Below are positions 17,985 through 34,814 of a stretch of 64,000 bases of DNA, piece by piece. The translations under genes were made by a program, and so were the position numbers. The notes below the pieces were generated by a model. It was given only the letters and a program-made list of their open reading frames with translations, ran no database searches and was not told the DNA's origin. The stretch lies in contig UCKM01000012.1 of the NCBI GenBank assembly GCA_900473175.1, forward strand, positions 1 to 64,000. Direction: 5' to 3'. Position 1 is the first letter of the stretch. The number at the start of each line of letters is the position of its first letter. Origin of the DNA: Hyphomicrobiales bacterium. GTDB taxonomy: Bacteria; Pseudomonadota; Alphaproteobacteria; Rhizobiales; Rhizobiaceae.

Positions 17985-18130
17985 TTGACTCGTCGCGCAC
18001 TTTCCTGTTTAAGCCGGGCATCAATCCGCGACGAGTTTGAAACTCCGAGCAGCCGACCGGGACCCCGAAAGGGTTGAATCGATCCCGGAGGTCAACACCC
18101 GACAGCGCGATGCGCCCTCGGGTGTCATTT
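17985..18130 (+). ncRNA. Candidate structured RNA upstream of ffh
   Basis: Three helices follow each other in a non-coding gap. ACTCGTCGCG (17988-17997) pairs perfectly with CGCGACGAGT (18027-18036). GACC-GGGA (18055-18062) pairs with TCCC-gga-GGTC (18083-18093) and encloses CCC-GAAA-GGG (18064-18073), a stem with a GNRA tetraloop. ACACCCGA (18095-18102) pairs with TCGGGTGT (18118-18125) and is followed by CATTTTG, like a weak terminator. It may be a small RNA, the 3' trailer of brnTA, or a leader of ffh. I judge only that stable structure is present. Confidence 0.45.
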
Positions 18131-18180
18131 TGCTTTGAGCCATTGGCCCTGGCGCGGATTGTGCTTACCTTCCACGGAAA

Positions 18181-30599: not shown

Positions 30600-33041
30600 A
30601 TGACATTGCCCACCCATGCCCAGATCGTCGTCATAGGCGGCGGAATCATCGGCTGCTCCACAGCCTATCATCTTGCGAGGGACCACAAGGCGGACGTGGT
30701 TCTCCTCGAAATGGGCCAGCTGACTTCGGGTTCCACCTGGCATGCGGCGGGTCTTGTCGGCCAGCTGCGCTCATCCGCTTCGATCACCCGCGTGCTGAAA
30801 TATTCGGTCGACCTCTACAAGCGGCTTGACGCCGAGACCGGTCTTGCCACCGGCTGGAAGATGACAGGATGCCTGCGCCTTGCGACCAATCAGGACCGCT
30901 GGACGGAATTCCGCCGGCTGGCGACCACGGCAGGAAGCTTCGGCATGGAGATGCACCTGCTTTCACCGCAGGAGGTAAAGGCAATGTTTCCGCTGATGCG
31001 GGTCGACGACCTTATTGGCGCAAGCTGGCTGCCCACGGACGGCCAGGCCAGCCCCTCGGACATCACCCAGTCGCTGGCGCGCGGCGCCCGGATGCACGGG
31101 GCGAAGCTCATCGAGAATATCCGCGTTACCGGTTTTGACATGGAGGGCGAGCGCGTCGTCAAGGTCAAGACCGACAAGGGTGATATTGCCTGCGAAAAGG
31201 TGGTCAACTGCGCGGGTCAGTGGGCGCGGCAAGTCGGTGAGATGGCTGGCATCAATGTGCCGCTGCAACCCATCAAGCATCAGTACGTCATTACCGAGAA
31301 GATCGAGGGCCTGTCTTCCAATGCACCGACCATTCGGGACCCGGACCGCCGCACCTATTTCAAGGAGGAAGTCGGCGGTCTGGTAATGGGCGGCTATGAG
31401 CCAAACCCACAAGCCTGGATGACCGGCGACGTGCCCAACGACTGGCAGTTCCGCCTGTTCGACGACGATTTCGACCATTTCGAACAGCATATGGTTCAGG
31501 CGATCGAGCGCATCCCGGCGCTCGAAGACGCCGGCGTCAAGCAGATGATCAACGGTCCCGAAAGCTTCACGCCCGATGGCAATTTCATCCTCGGGGTCGC
31601 GCCGGAATGCTCCAACATGTTCGTCGGCGCGGGTTTCAACGCCTTCGGCATCGCATCGGGCGGTGGCGCCGGCTGGGTGCTGGCGCAGTGGGCCATCGAT
31701 GGGGAAGCGCCGCTCGATTTGTGGACGGTCGATATAAGGCGCTTCTCCAATCTGCACCGCGATCGTCAATGGGTTCTCGACCGTACGCTCGAAGCCTACG
31801 GCAAGCACTACACCGTCGGCTTTCCGCATGAGGAATATGCATCCGGTCGCCCGGCCATTGTGTCACCGCTCTATGAACGCCTGAAAAAACACCGCGCCGT
31901 CTTCGGCTCCAAGCTTGGCTGGGAACGTCCGAACTGGTTCGCGCCGCAAGGCGTGGCTGTGGAAGACGTCTATTCGATGGGCCGCCAGAACTGGTTTGCC
32001 GCCGTGGGCGGCGAACACCGCCACGTGCGTGAAAAAGTCGGCATCTTCGATCAGTCGTCCTTCGCCAAGTTCGAGCTTGCCGGCAAGGATGCTGGCAAGG
32101 CGCTCGACCATATTTGCGCCAATGACGTGTCGAAACCGGCTGGCCGGTTGACCTACACGCAATTGCTCAACACTCGCGGCGGCATCGAATGCGACCTGAC
32201 CGTCGCGCGCCTTGCCGAGGACAGATTCTACATCGTCACCGGAACAGGCTTCCGCACCCATGACTTTGCCTGGATAAGGGACCATATCGGCGACGGCCTC
32301 GATGCCAGGCTCACCGACATCACCGAAGCGTTTGGCACCCTCTCCCTGATGGGACCGAGAGCCCGCGACGTCCTGGCTAAGGTCACCAGTGCCGACGTTG
32401 GCCAAGCCGCCTTTCCGTTTGGCCATGTGCGCGAGATCGAGATCGCCGGAACGATGGTGCGGGCACTGCGCGTCACCTATGTCGGTGAACTCGGCTGGGA
32501 GTTGCATGTGCCGATCGATGCTACCGGCGCGGTCTTCGACGCCCTCATGCAGGCCGGCGAGGCGTTCGGCATCAGGCCGGTCGGCTATCGCGCCCTAGAG
32601 TCGCTGCGGCTGGAAAAAGGTTACCGCGCCTGGGGCTCCGACATCACGCCGAACGACTCGCCCTTCGAAGCGGGGCTCGGCTGGGCCGTCAAGCTCACGA
32701 AGAACGTCGATTTCATCGGCCGCACGGCGGTTGACGCCATTCATGCCGCACCGTTGAAAAAACGGCTGGCCGGGTTCACGGTCATGGATAAGGAGGTGGT
32801 GCTCCTCGGCCGCGAAACGATCCTGCGCAACGGCAAACAGGTGGGCTACCTTACCAGCGGCGGCTATGGCTACACCGTCGATCGCCCGATCGGCTTCGGC
32901 TATGTGCGTAACGCCGAAGGTGTCAGCGACGCGTTCCTTGCCGAAGGCAATTATGAACTGATCGTCGCCAATGAACGCTTCGCCGCCGAGCTTCATATGA
33001 GGCCGCTTTACGACCCCGGCAACGATCGGGTGAAGGACTGA
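30600..33041 (+). CDS. Dimethylglycine/sarcosine dehydrogenase-like FAD-GcvT protein
   Basis: 813 residues. An N-terminal DAO-type FAD domain (VVIGGGIIGCSTAYHLA, residues 10-26) carries the segment STWHAAG with His48, the position of covalent FAD attachment in dimethylglycine and sarcosine dehydrogenases. An FAO_M linker follows (about 370-425). The C-terminal half is a GcvT-type tetrahydrofolate domain (about 430-800, ending in a GCV_T_C barrel with GYLTSGGYGYTVDRPIGFGYV). The family oxidises N-methyl groups of glycine derivatives and passes the carbon to folate. The exact substrate here is unknown. It appears to form an operon with the upstream kinase despite an intervening repeat. Confidence 0.9.
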   Translation: MTLPTHAQIVVIGGGIIGCSTAYHLARDHKADVVLLEMGQLTSGSTWHAAGLVGQLRSSASITRVLKYSVDLYKRLDAETGLATGWKMTGCLRLATNQDRWTEFRRLATTAGSFGMEMHLLSPQEVKAMFPLMRVDDLIGASWLPTDGQASPSDITQSLARGARMHGAKLIENIRVTGFDMEGERVVKVKTDKGDIACEKVVNCAGQWARQVGEMAGINVPLQPIKHQYVITEKIEGLSSNAPTIRDPDRRTYFKEEVGGLVMGGYEPNPQAWMTGDVPNDWQFRLFDDDFDHFEQHMVQAIERIPALEDAGVKQMINGPESFTPDGNFILGVAPECSNMFVGAGFNAFGIASGGGAGWVLAQWAIDGEAPLDLWTVDIRRFSNLHRDRQWVLDRTLEAYGKHYTVGFPHEEYASGRPAIVSPLYERLKKHRAVFGSKLGWERPNWFAPQGVAVEDVYSMGRQNWFAAVGGEHRHVREKVGIFDQSSFAKFELAGKDAGKALDHICANDVSKPAGRLTYTQLLNTRGGIECDLTVARLAEDRFYIVTGTGFRTHDFAWIRDHIGDGLDARLTDITEAFGTLSLMGPRARDVLAKVTSADVGQAAFPFGHVREIEIAGTMVRALRVTYVGELGWELHVPIDATGAVFDALMQAGEAFGIRPVGYRALESLRLEKGYRAWGSDITPNDSPFEAGLGWAVKLTKNVDFIGRTAVDAIHAAPLKKRLAGFTVMDKEVVLLGRETILRNGKQVGYLTSGGYGYTVDRPIGFGYVRNAEGVSDAFLAEGNYELIVANERFAAELHMRPLYDPGNDRVKD

Positions 33042-33308
33042 GACGGCTTTTGCAGCTTTCTCCTTGAGAAACGCGATGCTGTTGAAAGGAAACTGCTGAC
33101 TCTTGCGCAACAATTCCCGAAATGTGTGCGAAAATCGCCAGTTTTAGCTCGCATTTTTCAACTTCTGATCCGGGCTTGAAGTGCACGAAGTTGTGTTTTC
33201 GCAAACCCGACCCAAGGGCTTGACTTTGCTTCTGGACAAGACCAAATGACAGCGCGCGGGTCCTCGCATTTGCAAGCCTGTGCATCTTTCAACCGGAGTT
33301 TATCTCTC
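33042..33308. other. Upstream part of the mgtE leader region
   Basis: Between the oxidoreductase stop and the upstream ORF I see no gene, hairpin of note or repeat. The mgtE promoter must lie here, but no convincing -35/-10 pair could be read by eye. Confidence 0.4.
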
Positions 33309-33368
33309 ATGCCCAACGACGACAGTCATAGTCGATTGTTTGCGCCGTCATCGGCGATCGTGGCCTGA
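33309..33368 (+). CDS. Candidate leader peptide of mgtE (19 codons)
   Basis: An ATG at 33309 behind a CGGAG ribosome binding site (10 nt spacing) opens a 19-codon frame ending in TGA at 33366. The peptide is MPNDDSHSRLFAPSSAIVA. It begins with Pro and two Asp, the residue types reported to destabilise translating ribosomes at low Mg2+ in enterobacterial mgtL. Its last codons form one arm (GGCGA 33353-33357, CTGAT 33365-33369) of a possible anti-sequestrator helix. It lies 60 nt before mgtE. Coding function is an inference from position and RBS only. Confidence 0.5.
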   Translation: MPNDDSHSRLFAPSSAIVA

Positions 33369-33425
33369 TTTGTAAGATCAGCTCGCCTCGATCCCCATGA
33401 CGGCGGATCGACAGAAAGGCGAGCT
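33353..33425 (+). promoter_or_regulatory. Two competing hairpins controlling the mgtE ribosome binding site
   Basis: Sequestrator: AGCTCGCCT (33380-33388) pairs perfectly with AGGCGAGCT (33417-33425), which contains the mgtE Shine-Dalgarno, and CGATCC (33389-33394) pairs with GGATCG (33405-33410). Anti-sequestrator: GGCGA (33353-33357) pairs with TCGCC (33383-33387), and CTGAT (33365-33369) pairs with ATCAG (33377-33381). The two folds share 33380-33388 and cannot coexist. A ribosome finishing the 19-codon leader ORF would cover the anti-sequestrator arm and favour the closed form. Confidence 0.6.
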
Positions 33426-33428
33426 AAA

Positions 33429-34814
33429 ATGAACGACCTTCGCTTTACCAAGGATGTGGTTGATGCCGGACTTGCATCAGCCATGACCCTTGCCGACCAG
33501 CTTGCAACGATGCAGGCGGCAGATGCCGTCGAGCTTCTGAACGAGCTCGAACTTGACGATACCATTGGCATTATTGCCGAAATGCCGCGCGATCACGCGG
33601 TGCTCATACTCGATCAACCGGAGTTGCATTCGGCTGCCACGATCATTGAGGCGCTTCCCGATGCGGCCGCCTGCGCGCTGCTTGATGCCATGTCGGCCGA
33701 CCGCGTCACCGACATCTTTCACGAGCTTGATGAAAAGGTTCGCGACCGGCTGTTTCCCGGGCTTGGCCGCGAGACGCAGGCGGCCTTGCGCAAGCTGCTG
33801 CGCTATCCACCCCATACGGCGGGTAGCCTGATGACCACCGAGTTTGTCAGCGTGCCGGCGAACTGGAGCGTTGCCCAGACGTTGCAATACATCCGCGAGG
33901 TCGAGCGTTCCCGCGAGACGGTTTATGCCATCTATGTCACTGATCCTGCAACGAAAAGCCTGCTGCGGGCTGTCGCCCTGCGGCGGCTGATCACGAGTGA
34001 ACCCGACGTTTCCATCATGAGCGTCGGCCGCGATGTCGCCCCCGTGACGGTCGCACCGCTCACCGATCAGGAGGACGTTGCACGCCTCTTCCGCAAGCAT
34101 GATCTTTTGGCCGTTCCCGTGGTCAATGACGGCAACCAGATCATCGGCATCGTTACAGTCGATGATGTGATCGACGCCATGACCCAGGAAATGACCGAGG
34201 ATACCTTGAAGTTCGGCGGCATGGAGGCTTTGAACAAGCCCTATATGCAGATCGGATTCCTGCACATGATCCGCAAGCGTGCCGGCTGGCTCGGCGTGCT
34301 TTTCCTGAGCGAAATGCTCACCGCCAGCGCCATGCAGCATTTCGAGGGGGAATTGGAGAGGGCAGTCGTCCTGACCTTGTTCATTCCACTGATCATGAGC
34401 TCGGGCGGCAATTCCGGATCGCAGGCGACATCGCTCCTGATCCGTGCGCTTGCCCTGCAGGAACTGCGCCTGAAAGACTGGTGGCGTGTTGCCTTGCGCG
34501 AAATACCGACCGGTCTCGTGCTCGGCTCCTTCCTGGGTCTGATCGGCGTTGTCCGCATCACCACGTGGCAGATGCTCGGCCTTTTCGACTACGGCCCGCA
34601 TTGGCCGCTGATCGCCGCGACCGTCGGCACGGCGCTCGTCGGCATCGTGACCTTCGGCTCGCTGGTCGGTTCGATGCTGCCGTTCATTCTGCAGAAAACC
34701 GGCTTTGATCCTGCGAGCGCGTCGGCGCCCTTTGTCGCGACGCTGGTCGATGTCACCGGGTTGGTGATCTATTTCAGCATTGCCCTTGTGATCCTCTCAG
34801 GCACGCTGCTTTAG
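33429..34814 (+). CDS. mgtE: Magnesium transporter MgtE
   Basis: 461 residues, the family length. An N-terminal superhelical domain (about 15-130) holds the acidic EALPDAAACALLDAM repeats. A CBS pair (about 135-255) includes VPANWSVAQTLQYIREV, LLAVPVVNDGNQIIGIVTVDDVIDAM. Five transmembrane helices (about 285-460) contain LTLFIPLIMSSGGNSGSQA, which forms the channel gate region. It is a Mg2+-selective channel that senses cytosolic Mg2+ through the N and CBS domains. The RBS AAAGGCGAG lies in a sequestering hairpin. A strong terminator follows the stop by one base. Confidence 0.97.
   Translation: MNDLRFTKDVVDAGLASAMTLADQLATMQAADAVELLNELELDDTIGIIAEMPRDHAVLILDQPELHSAATIIEALPDAAACALLDAMSADRVTDIFHELDEKVRDRLFPGLGRETQAALRKLLRYPPHTAGSLMTTEFVSVPANWSVAQTLQYIREVERSRETVYAIYVTDPATKSLLRAVALRRLITSEPDVSIMSVGRDVAPVTVAPLTDQEDVARLFRKHDLLAVPVVNDGNQIIGIVTVDDVIDAMTQEMTEDTLKFGGMEALNKPYMQIGFLHMIRKRAGWLGVLFLSEMLTASAMQHFEGELERAVVLTLFIPLIMSSGGNSGSQATSLLIRALALQELRLKDWWRVALREIPTGLVLGSFLGLIGVVRITTWQMLGLFDYGPHWPLIAATVGTALVGIVTFGSLVGSMLPFILQKTGFDPASASAPFVATLVDVTGLVIYFSIALVILSGTLL

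Follow-up and report, generated by a model that had tools for sequence, protein, structure and literature searches.

A probable leader-peptide switch upstream of mgtE and other Mg2+-transport genes

We propose that the RNA immediately upstream of mgtE in the window, by which we mean the whole 64,000-nucleotide stretch of DNA that was analysed, is probably a leader-peptide (uORF) translational switch belonging to a group of Mg2+-transport genes. The proposal is based on a short conserved ORF, on two mutually exclusive RNA folds that covary among relatives, and on a folding model in which a ribosome on the ORF decides between them.

The leader ORF and its two exclusive folds

The first-pass annotation of this DNA had claimed a leader of 19 codons with its own ribosome-binding site in front of mgtE, and such an ORF is present at 33309-33368, with its ATG at 33309-33311, its TGA at 33366-33368 and a Shine-Dalgarno (SD) sequence at 33293-33298. 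Its stop lies 60 nt from the mgtE start, and the gene upstream of it, encoding a DAO/GCV_T protein, ends at 33041. In a 20-member genus alignment the motifs TTGACTTT and CCAAATG are invariant or nearly so while their flanks vary; because a simple scan of 32700-33700 for sigma-70 promoters gave none, we name them a candidate promoter on the basis of conservation. The features of the region are as follows.

33220-33227 and 33242-33248, + strand: candidate promoter, TTGACTTT and the box CCAAATG (genus conservation)
33293-33298, + strand: SD of the leader ORF, CCGGAG (sequence)
33309-33368, + strand: leader ORF, 19 codons, MPNDDSHSRLFAPSSAIVA (in-frame spacers; conserved first half)
33330-33335, + strand: Ser-Arg codons AGT CGA, codons 8-9 (codon counts; folding against ribosome position)
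33331-33336, + strand: antisequestor P1, 5' arm GTCGAT, pairing with 33407-33412 (probability 0.80-0.88)
33344-33350, + strand: antisequestor P2, 5' arm GCCGTCA, pairing with 33398-33404 (probability about 0.96)
33365-33381, + strand: antisequestor P3, CTGAT 33365-33369 with ATCAG 33377-33381, overlapping the leader stop (probability 0.96-0.97)
33380-33394, + strand: sequestor 5' arm, AGCTCGCC TCGATCC (folding; outer helix covaries)
33398-33412, + strand: antisequestor 3' arms, TGACGGC (33398-33404) and ATCGAC (33407-33412) (folding, covariation)
33405-33425, + strand: sequestor 3' arm, GGATCGA ... GGCGAGCT, containing the mgtE SD (covariation and folding)
33415-33423, + strand: SD of mgtE, AAAGGCGAG (sequence)
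33429-34814, + strand: mgtE, Mg2+ transporter of 461 aa (Pfam MgtE, MgtE_N and CBS above cut-offs)

A hairpin burying the mgtE SD, as first described, is borne out by folding: 33380-33394 pairs with 33405-33425, the outer helix joining AGCTCGCC (33380-33387) to GGCGAGCT (33418-33425) and the inner helix joining TCGATCC (33388-33394) to GGATCGA (33405-33411). The competing helix that had been proposed against this sequestor fared unevenly. Its letters are where they were said to be and its CTGAT/ATCAG portion forms, whereas GGCGA/TCGCC (33353-33357/33383-33387) has a pair probability of 0.000 and was rejected as the competitor; forcing the two portions together costs about 12 kcal/mol (-40.9 versus -52.8). 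The competitor that does form in the model, 33331-33336/33407-33412 together with 33344-33350/33398-33404, is larger than the one first proposed. Since they share nucleotides, the sequestor and this antisequestor cannot coexist. The 141 nt of 33300-33440 fold at -52.8 kcal/mol, as compared with -37.8 +/- 4.1 for shuffled sequences (z -3.7, 0/200), and the window favours the antisequestor state over the sequestor state (-49.8) by a gap of 3 kcal/mol. In the open state of this fold the mgtE SD is partly paired with the mgtE start and so is not fully free.

The first-pass annotation had suggested an alignment of related genomes, and there the leader ORF is conserved and both of the exclusive folds covary. 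The covariation alignment holds 38 family sequences from the 64 stretches then collected, nine short-type loci and near-duplicates having been excluded; the sequences are related and hence not independent. The antisequestor scores 0.180 (shuffles 0.116 +/- 0.009; slid controls at most 0.093) and the sequestor 0.289 (shuffles 0.181 +/- 0.011; slid controls at most 0.104), and both folds beat the shuffles and the slid controls in score, in paired cells and in cells with a change on each side. By further pair types, which were matched by 188/500 and 251/500 shuffles, neither fold stands above its control, and shifting the antisequestor by -2 leaves the number of double-change pairs at 6, though with fewer such cells (12 versus 29). 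The signal is spread over several helices: both sides have changed in four of the eight pairs of the sequestor outer helix, in four of the seven pairs of P2 (88.3% of cells paired) and in two of the five pairs of P3. P1 gives no evidence of covariation because it is near-invariant, with 99.6% of its cells paired and four of its six pairs never varying.

We then asked of a folding model what it costs to open the downstream SD for each codon position of a ribosome on the leader, letting only the RNA 3' of the ribosome fold. From a set of 190 distinct elements, described below, 184 entered the model (start-to-start distance up to 150). On ribosome-free leaders opening takes 4.1 kcal/mol on average; with the P site at codons 1-7 the mean is 3.6-4.3, and it then climbs to 5.1 at codon 8, 5.8 at codon 9 and 7.4 at codon 18. 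For the window the cost starts at 4.3 with no ribosome, is 4.1 when codon 8 is reached, and goes to 5.1 at codon 9 (CGA), 7.4 at codon 10 and 8.0 at the stop. A ribosome at the stop makes opening costlier than no ribosome in 176 of the 184 elements (mean difference +3.10), as compared with -0.08 and 49% above zero for dinucleotide shuffles of the region; the remaining eight elements show no closing at the stop.

These calculations suggest how the switch would work. The translated leader would overlap the 5' arms of the antisequestor. With no ribosome, or with one at codons 1-7 or so, the antisequestor is predicted to form and the downstream SD to be cheaper to open; a ribosome that moves past the Ser-Arg codons and on to the stop would cover the antisequestor arms, and the sequestor would hide the SD. 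When Mg2+ is plentiful the leader would be read through and mgtE kept off, and when it is scarce ribosomes would pause or drop off within the first eight or nine codons, turning mgtE on. That full translation closes mgtE and early ribosome loss opens it had been the inference of the first-pass annotation, and it draws support, at the level of a model, from conservation and modelling.

Distribution, reading frame and codons of the leader

The region is present in all 20 members of the genus that were searched, the window's genome counted, and the leader and switch have a mean column identity of 89% in the genus alignment. At the family level we collected 62 loci of mgtE orthologues (E below 1e-160): 45 carry the leader by a nucleotide regex and one more (L071) by a peptide regex, and it is absent from the other 16, of which 12 belong to genomes of 1.0-2.4 Mb. 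In the order, which we take to be Hyphomicrobiales, 61 of 397 genomes have a covariance-model hit to the element (E <=0.01); strict filters were applied, and the model does not pick up the short type present in genus g89. An order-level mgtE orthologue occurs in 33 of 259 genomes; the peptide regex detected the leader at 20 of 24 newly fetched mgtE loci, one case being decayed (L307), and at the other four of the 24 a regex gave no leader. A sample of 240 genomes of the class, the window's among them, holds no exact match to the leader pattern, which the window's genome escapes because its leader has an extra GAC, and gives no hint that the leader occurs beyond the order. Nor was such a leader seen at the seven examined of 19 Mg ATPase loci from the class. 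In several loci (L026, L028-L030, L037-L040) an in-frame ATG precedes the assigned start of mgtE by 30 nt and falls within the switch.

The 190 distinct elements were collected with a nucleotide regex that allows in-frame gaps only, ends in CGA and requires Pro or Ser at residue 2 and Asp or Glu at residue 4; given that the regex demands them, this set cannot test the frame, CGA, Pro2 or Asp4. The frame was instead judged by scanning named genomes for Asp-Ser and Ser-Arg codons separated by a spacer of 0-3 nt, which returned at least 119 loci. Spacers of 1 and 2 nt were permitted, and among the matches listed all 119 have 0 or 3 nt (93 are 27 nt long and 26 are 24 nt long; lengths of 25 and 26 nt do not occur); therefore the leader is, judging from sequence, very probably translated. 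Within the genus, the one length change in the first half is the loss of a whole codon (3 of 20 members). That half of the peptide is conserved and the second half variable, with a frame shift near codon 14 in four of 20 members. From the whole-codon change early and the frame shifts late we conclude that the first half is read as codons and that the end of the peptide is free. Among the 190 elements the peptide has a length of 10 to 24. The SD and start of the leader are kept in relatives as their surroundings vary; the SD is a purine-rich one in most, and is missing at this position in L300-L302, L305 and L318. A term count of the main text of an S. meliloti ribosome-profiling paper found no mention of mgtE.

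The leader has a near-invariant block, Asp-Ser-(x)-Ser-Arg, whose Ser and Arg are encoded by AGT and CGA, both of them rare codons. We counted codons in 47 distinct leaders from 86 loci reached via the MgtE protein. The Arg codon is CGA in all 47, although the mgtE genes themselves use CGA for just 1.4% of their Arg, and the Ser codons are AGT in 46/46 and 44/45, as against 6.0%. The regex used for the count lost 28 loci, of which L069, L300-L303, L305 and L318 nonetheless have the leader and L307, L313 and L319 have decayed or shifted forms of it, partly judged by eye. Conservation of AGT and CGA is greater than the peptide requires, and no single pairing partner accounts for it in all subgroups. 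The CGA codon pairs mostly downstream in the 108 long types before mgtE (0.39), mostly with an upstream CGAC in the 33 elements before small membrane proteins (0.56), and little with either partner in the 23 of the short type (0.12 and 0.04); with the preferred partner differing in this way, one RNA partner was rejected as the general cause. AGU is read by wobble. In most bacteria, according to the part of the source used here, CGA shares an inosine tRNA with CGU and CGC (PMC3711424). Slow wobble decoding may set the timing of the switch, and the sensor might be poor elongation over Pro-x-Asp-Ser-(x)-Ser-Arg, aided by AGU and CGA, both rare and decoded by wobble; an acidic run would then not be the main sensor.

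The first-pass annotation had placed the sensor in an acidic and proline-rich run, which does not describe the leaders at large: two or more acidic residues among the first eight occur in 35 of the 190, and the other 155 have one. The window's own leader, which reads Pro-Asn-Asp-Asp, is an exception with its Asp-Asp pair. One form of the proposed switch would nevertheless take its signal from acidic and proline residues that destabilise the ribosome intrinsically, in the manner of mgtL and mgtQ, whose EPDP and Asp2/Glu5 act thus in the available text of the papers (PMC11282234, PMC8092293). It would be consistent with the window's leader and with the Pro found at residue 2 in 179 of the 190 (Ser in the rest), a count from a regex that permitted these two residues alone. 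The single acidic residue of most leaders argues against it, as do the leaders that read MPSNDHSR (L097, L101, L113) and the statement in the same mgtL paper, as far as its text goes here, that di-acidic residues are not sufficient alone (PMC11282234), and it leaves the fixed AGT and CGA codons unexplained. We regard this form as possible and rather doubtful, its probability overlapping with that of the switch of which it is a version.

Genes behind the leader and the Mg2+ signal

By BLAST, the next ORF behind the 190 distinct elements encodes MgtE in 131, a small membrane protein in 33, an ABC permease in 8, MgtC in 3, a DUF1003 protein in 2, MgtA in 1, OprB in 1 and another protein in 11. 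Among these 11 are three mgtE loci (L032, L071, L132) and two that match the small membrane proteins (L177, L245). Three DUF1003 loci with MPSNDHSR (one of them tested) lie outside the collecting regex. Profiles place MgtC behind the leader at L160, L203 and L217 (above Pfam and below NCBIfam equivalog cut-offs), a Mg-translocating P-type ATPase at L180 and L183 (above the TIGR01524 cut-off) and a CorA-family protein at L224 (above the Pfam and below the TIGR00383 cut-off). The ATPase and CorA-family genes are second or later ORFs, and at L160, L180, L183 and L224 a short ORF separates the leader from the Mg2+ gene. Single genomes can carry two leaders: one Ochrobactrum genome has one before mgtE and another before an mgtA operon, genome G480 before mgtE and a small membrane protein, and G632 before mgtE and an ABC operon. 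From the MgtE, MgtC, Mg ATPase and CorA contexts we conclude that the leader marks a gene group with a strong Mg2+ component, and since it also stands before mgtC, Mg ATPase and CorA-family genes the link to Mg2+ does not hang on one gene name.

Several of the other genes recur. A duplicated ABC permease is found behind the leader at L104:1641-3143, L114, L124, L143, L160:4458-6200 and L174; at L143, where this was tested, it is accompanied by an AAA_assoc_C ATPase, and a homologous permease (L325:1-1230) follows an M-box. The leader-linked permease is probably a Mg2+-regulated transporter. In Methylobacterium, Aestuariivirga, Chelatococcus, Microvirga and others the leader is followed by small proteins (64-95 aa) that have a single hydrophobic stretch (L103, L109, L119, L122, L125, L131, L153, L173, L177, L224), with no confident family among those tested; at L224 the CorA-family gene comes after one of them. 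Another kind of small protein, W..dp.tgr..CrW-like, lies directly behind the leader at L183:1841-2158, L210:2752-2952, L236 and L267, being followed by the Mg ATPase at L183; two that were tested have no Pfam match.

The switch could also be real and its signal be some other slowing of translation, such as the charging of tRNA-Arg or tRNA-Ser, growth rate or another ion or stress, the tie to Mg2+ being partial. This reading draws on the same structure and codon data, the rare AGT and CGA could report the state of their tRNAs, and for roughly 50 of the 190 leaders, about one in four, the gene that follows has no known role in Mg2+. We nevertheless think it unlikely, in that four unrelated families of Mg2+ transport share the leader, and in that an M-box, the Mg2+ riboswitch, adjoins the leader in Tsukamurella and another precedes a homologue of the leader-linked ABC permease.

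In the two Tsukamurella loci (L203, L217) the leader lies about 50 nt behind the M-box and before mgtC, which in L203 is followed by an ABC permease and ATPase; they are the only loci with an M-box among 17 relatives' loci scanned, the other 15 having none. We sampled M-boxes in the order of Tsukamurella (7 of 81 genomes) and in its class (17 of 296), two overlapping samples that gave 33 loci (L321-L353); a search behind the M-box turned up a short ORF with a good SD in 27 and none in six. Inspected by eye, 20 of these 27 uORFs begin M/V-S-[PSI]. Among the 20, residues 5-6 are Asp-Ser in 13, and elsewhere His, Gly, Arg or Ser replaces Asp, the next codon being AGT. CGA follows a few codons on in six of the uORFs and AGA in three; those of L323, L325 and L342-L344 differ, L326 is the Tsukamurella locus, and in L351 the motif is within a longer frame. 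Many uORFs of these loci thus follow the pattern MS[PS]x(D)SP, use AGT and resemble the alphaproteobacterial leader, a resemblance that by itself does not establish common descent. We take them to be probably of the Rv1805A (uORF2) kind from their position behind the M-box and their proline 7. In the available text its authors call the Rv1805A peptide specific to mycobacteria and assign it no function (PMC12810186). Seven proteins behind M-boxes were profiled: a P-type ATPase, two Nramp, a CorA, two MgtE and an ABC permease, the last being 42% identical to the leader-linked one.

A wider reading would join these observations: the ribosome itself would sense Mg2+ by way of decoding and not of an acidic nascent chain, the wobble-read AGU and CGA of a start block Pro/Ser-x-Asp-Ser-(x)-Ser-Arg causing ribosomes to slow down or be lost as Mg2+ drops, and the block would be an old and portable leader, spanning Hyphomicrobiales (mgtE, mgtA, corA), sphingomonads (mgtC and the ABC operon) and Mycobacteriales behind M-boxes, with the Rv1805A-type uORF as its relative in the last. 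We offer this joint reading tentatively, and as a whole it is improbable.

Relation to known systems

The closest described system is mgtQ of Salmonella, an 8-aa uORF before mgtB in which, in the text available to us, stems 1:2 and 3:4 exclude stem 2:3, the target SD lies in 3:4, efficient translation shuts mgtB and early ribosome loss opens it (PMC8092293). A short leader, exclusive stems, a buried target SD and, in our model, the logic by which translation shuts the gene are common to both. According to the same text, mgtQ sits between mgtC and mgtB in the enterobacterial mgtCBRU and needs Asp2/Glu5 (PMC8092293), whereas the present leader is promoter-proximal, has another sequence and fixed AGT and CGA codons, and serves several gene families. 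With mgtL of mgtA, as described in part of its paper, it shares a start with Pro and acidic residues, a Mg2+-transport gene and the decisive role of early ribosome loss (PMC11282234). Membership in the mgtQ or mgtL sequence family was rejected because the acidic pair (EPDP, or Asp2 with Glu5) that destabilises ribosomes there is lacking, one early acidic residue being the rule among the leaders and two the case in the window. The M-box uORF2/Rv1805A systems, too, have a short conserved uORF within the leaders of Mg2+ genes (PMC12810186, in part); unlike these, the window and the 15 scanned loci outside Tsukamurella have no M-box. The mgtE motif SRC-65-1 likewise places a structured RNA over the SD of mgtE; it covers the AUG too, and in the source as available it is a riboswitch candidate found exclusively in Thioalkalivibrio (PMC11109978).

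We think it very unlikely that the output is Rho-dependent attenuation of transcription and not occlusion of the SD. E. coli mgtL does act in this way, governing access to a Rho-dependent terminator in the text seen (PMC11282234), and 60 nt lie between the leader stop and mgtE; the structure studied here, however, addresses the SD, with which the covarying sequestor pairs directly. No terminator-like site was found in 32700-33700, a scan that does not bear on Rho.

Still slightly less probable is a classical riboswitch, in which the RNA itself would be the receptor for Mg2+ or for a different ligand, the short ORF being incidental: strong nucleotide conservation, covariation and a place before Mg2+-transport genes like that of the M-box speak for it, and against it stand the in-frame spacing of all 119 matches listed, the retention of the leader SD and start amid varying surroundings, constant nucleotides that are those of the leader codons and stems with no complex aptamer core seen, and the lack of an Rfam match to the element. 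Rfam gave no family at its cut-off on the element and none on it at the relatives' loci scanned, and up to E 10 the stretch 33200-33500 has just two chance-level matches (CRISPR-DR20, HOTAIR_3); with no covariance-model match, membership in any Rfam family was rejected. The same holds for the M-box, RF00380 being absent from the window and, up to E 10, from 33200-33500.

In the literature consulted, mostly open-access papers, and in Rfam we found no such leader for alphaproteobacterial Mg2+ genes, and a text search for MPSDS returned no related paper. We see in the leader a probable form of the known kind of uORF switch. One leader on four families of Mg2+ transporters would amount to a post-transcriptional regulon for Mg2+ among rhizobia, methylobacteria and related bacteria, and would suggest roles in Mg2+ for the small membrane proteins, the DUF1003 proteins and the ABC transporter. 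The leader could also explain what the conserved uORF downstream of M-boxes does in mycobacteria, and it provides a clean test of whether codon decoding can itself sense Mg2+.

Two further RNAs were noted in passing. In a Sphingobium arseniciresistens record a chrB-a RNA (RF03078) lies at L160:314-391, some 3 kb upstream of the leader, and the window contains an ordinary ffh small RNA (Rfam RF01793) at 18081-18132.
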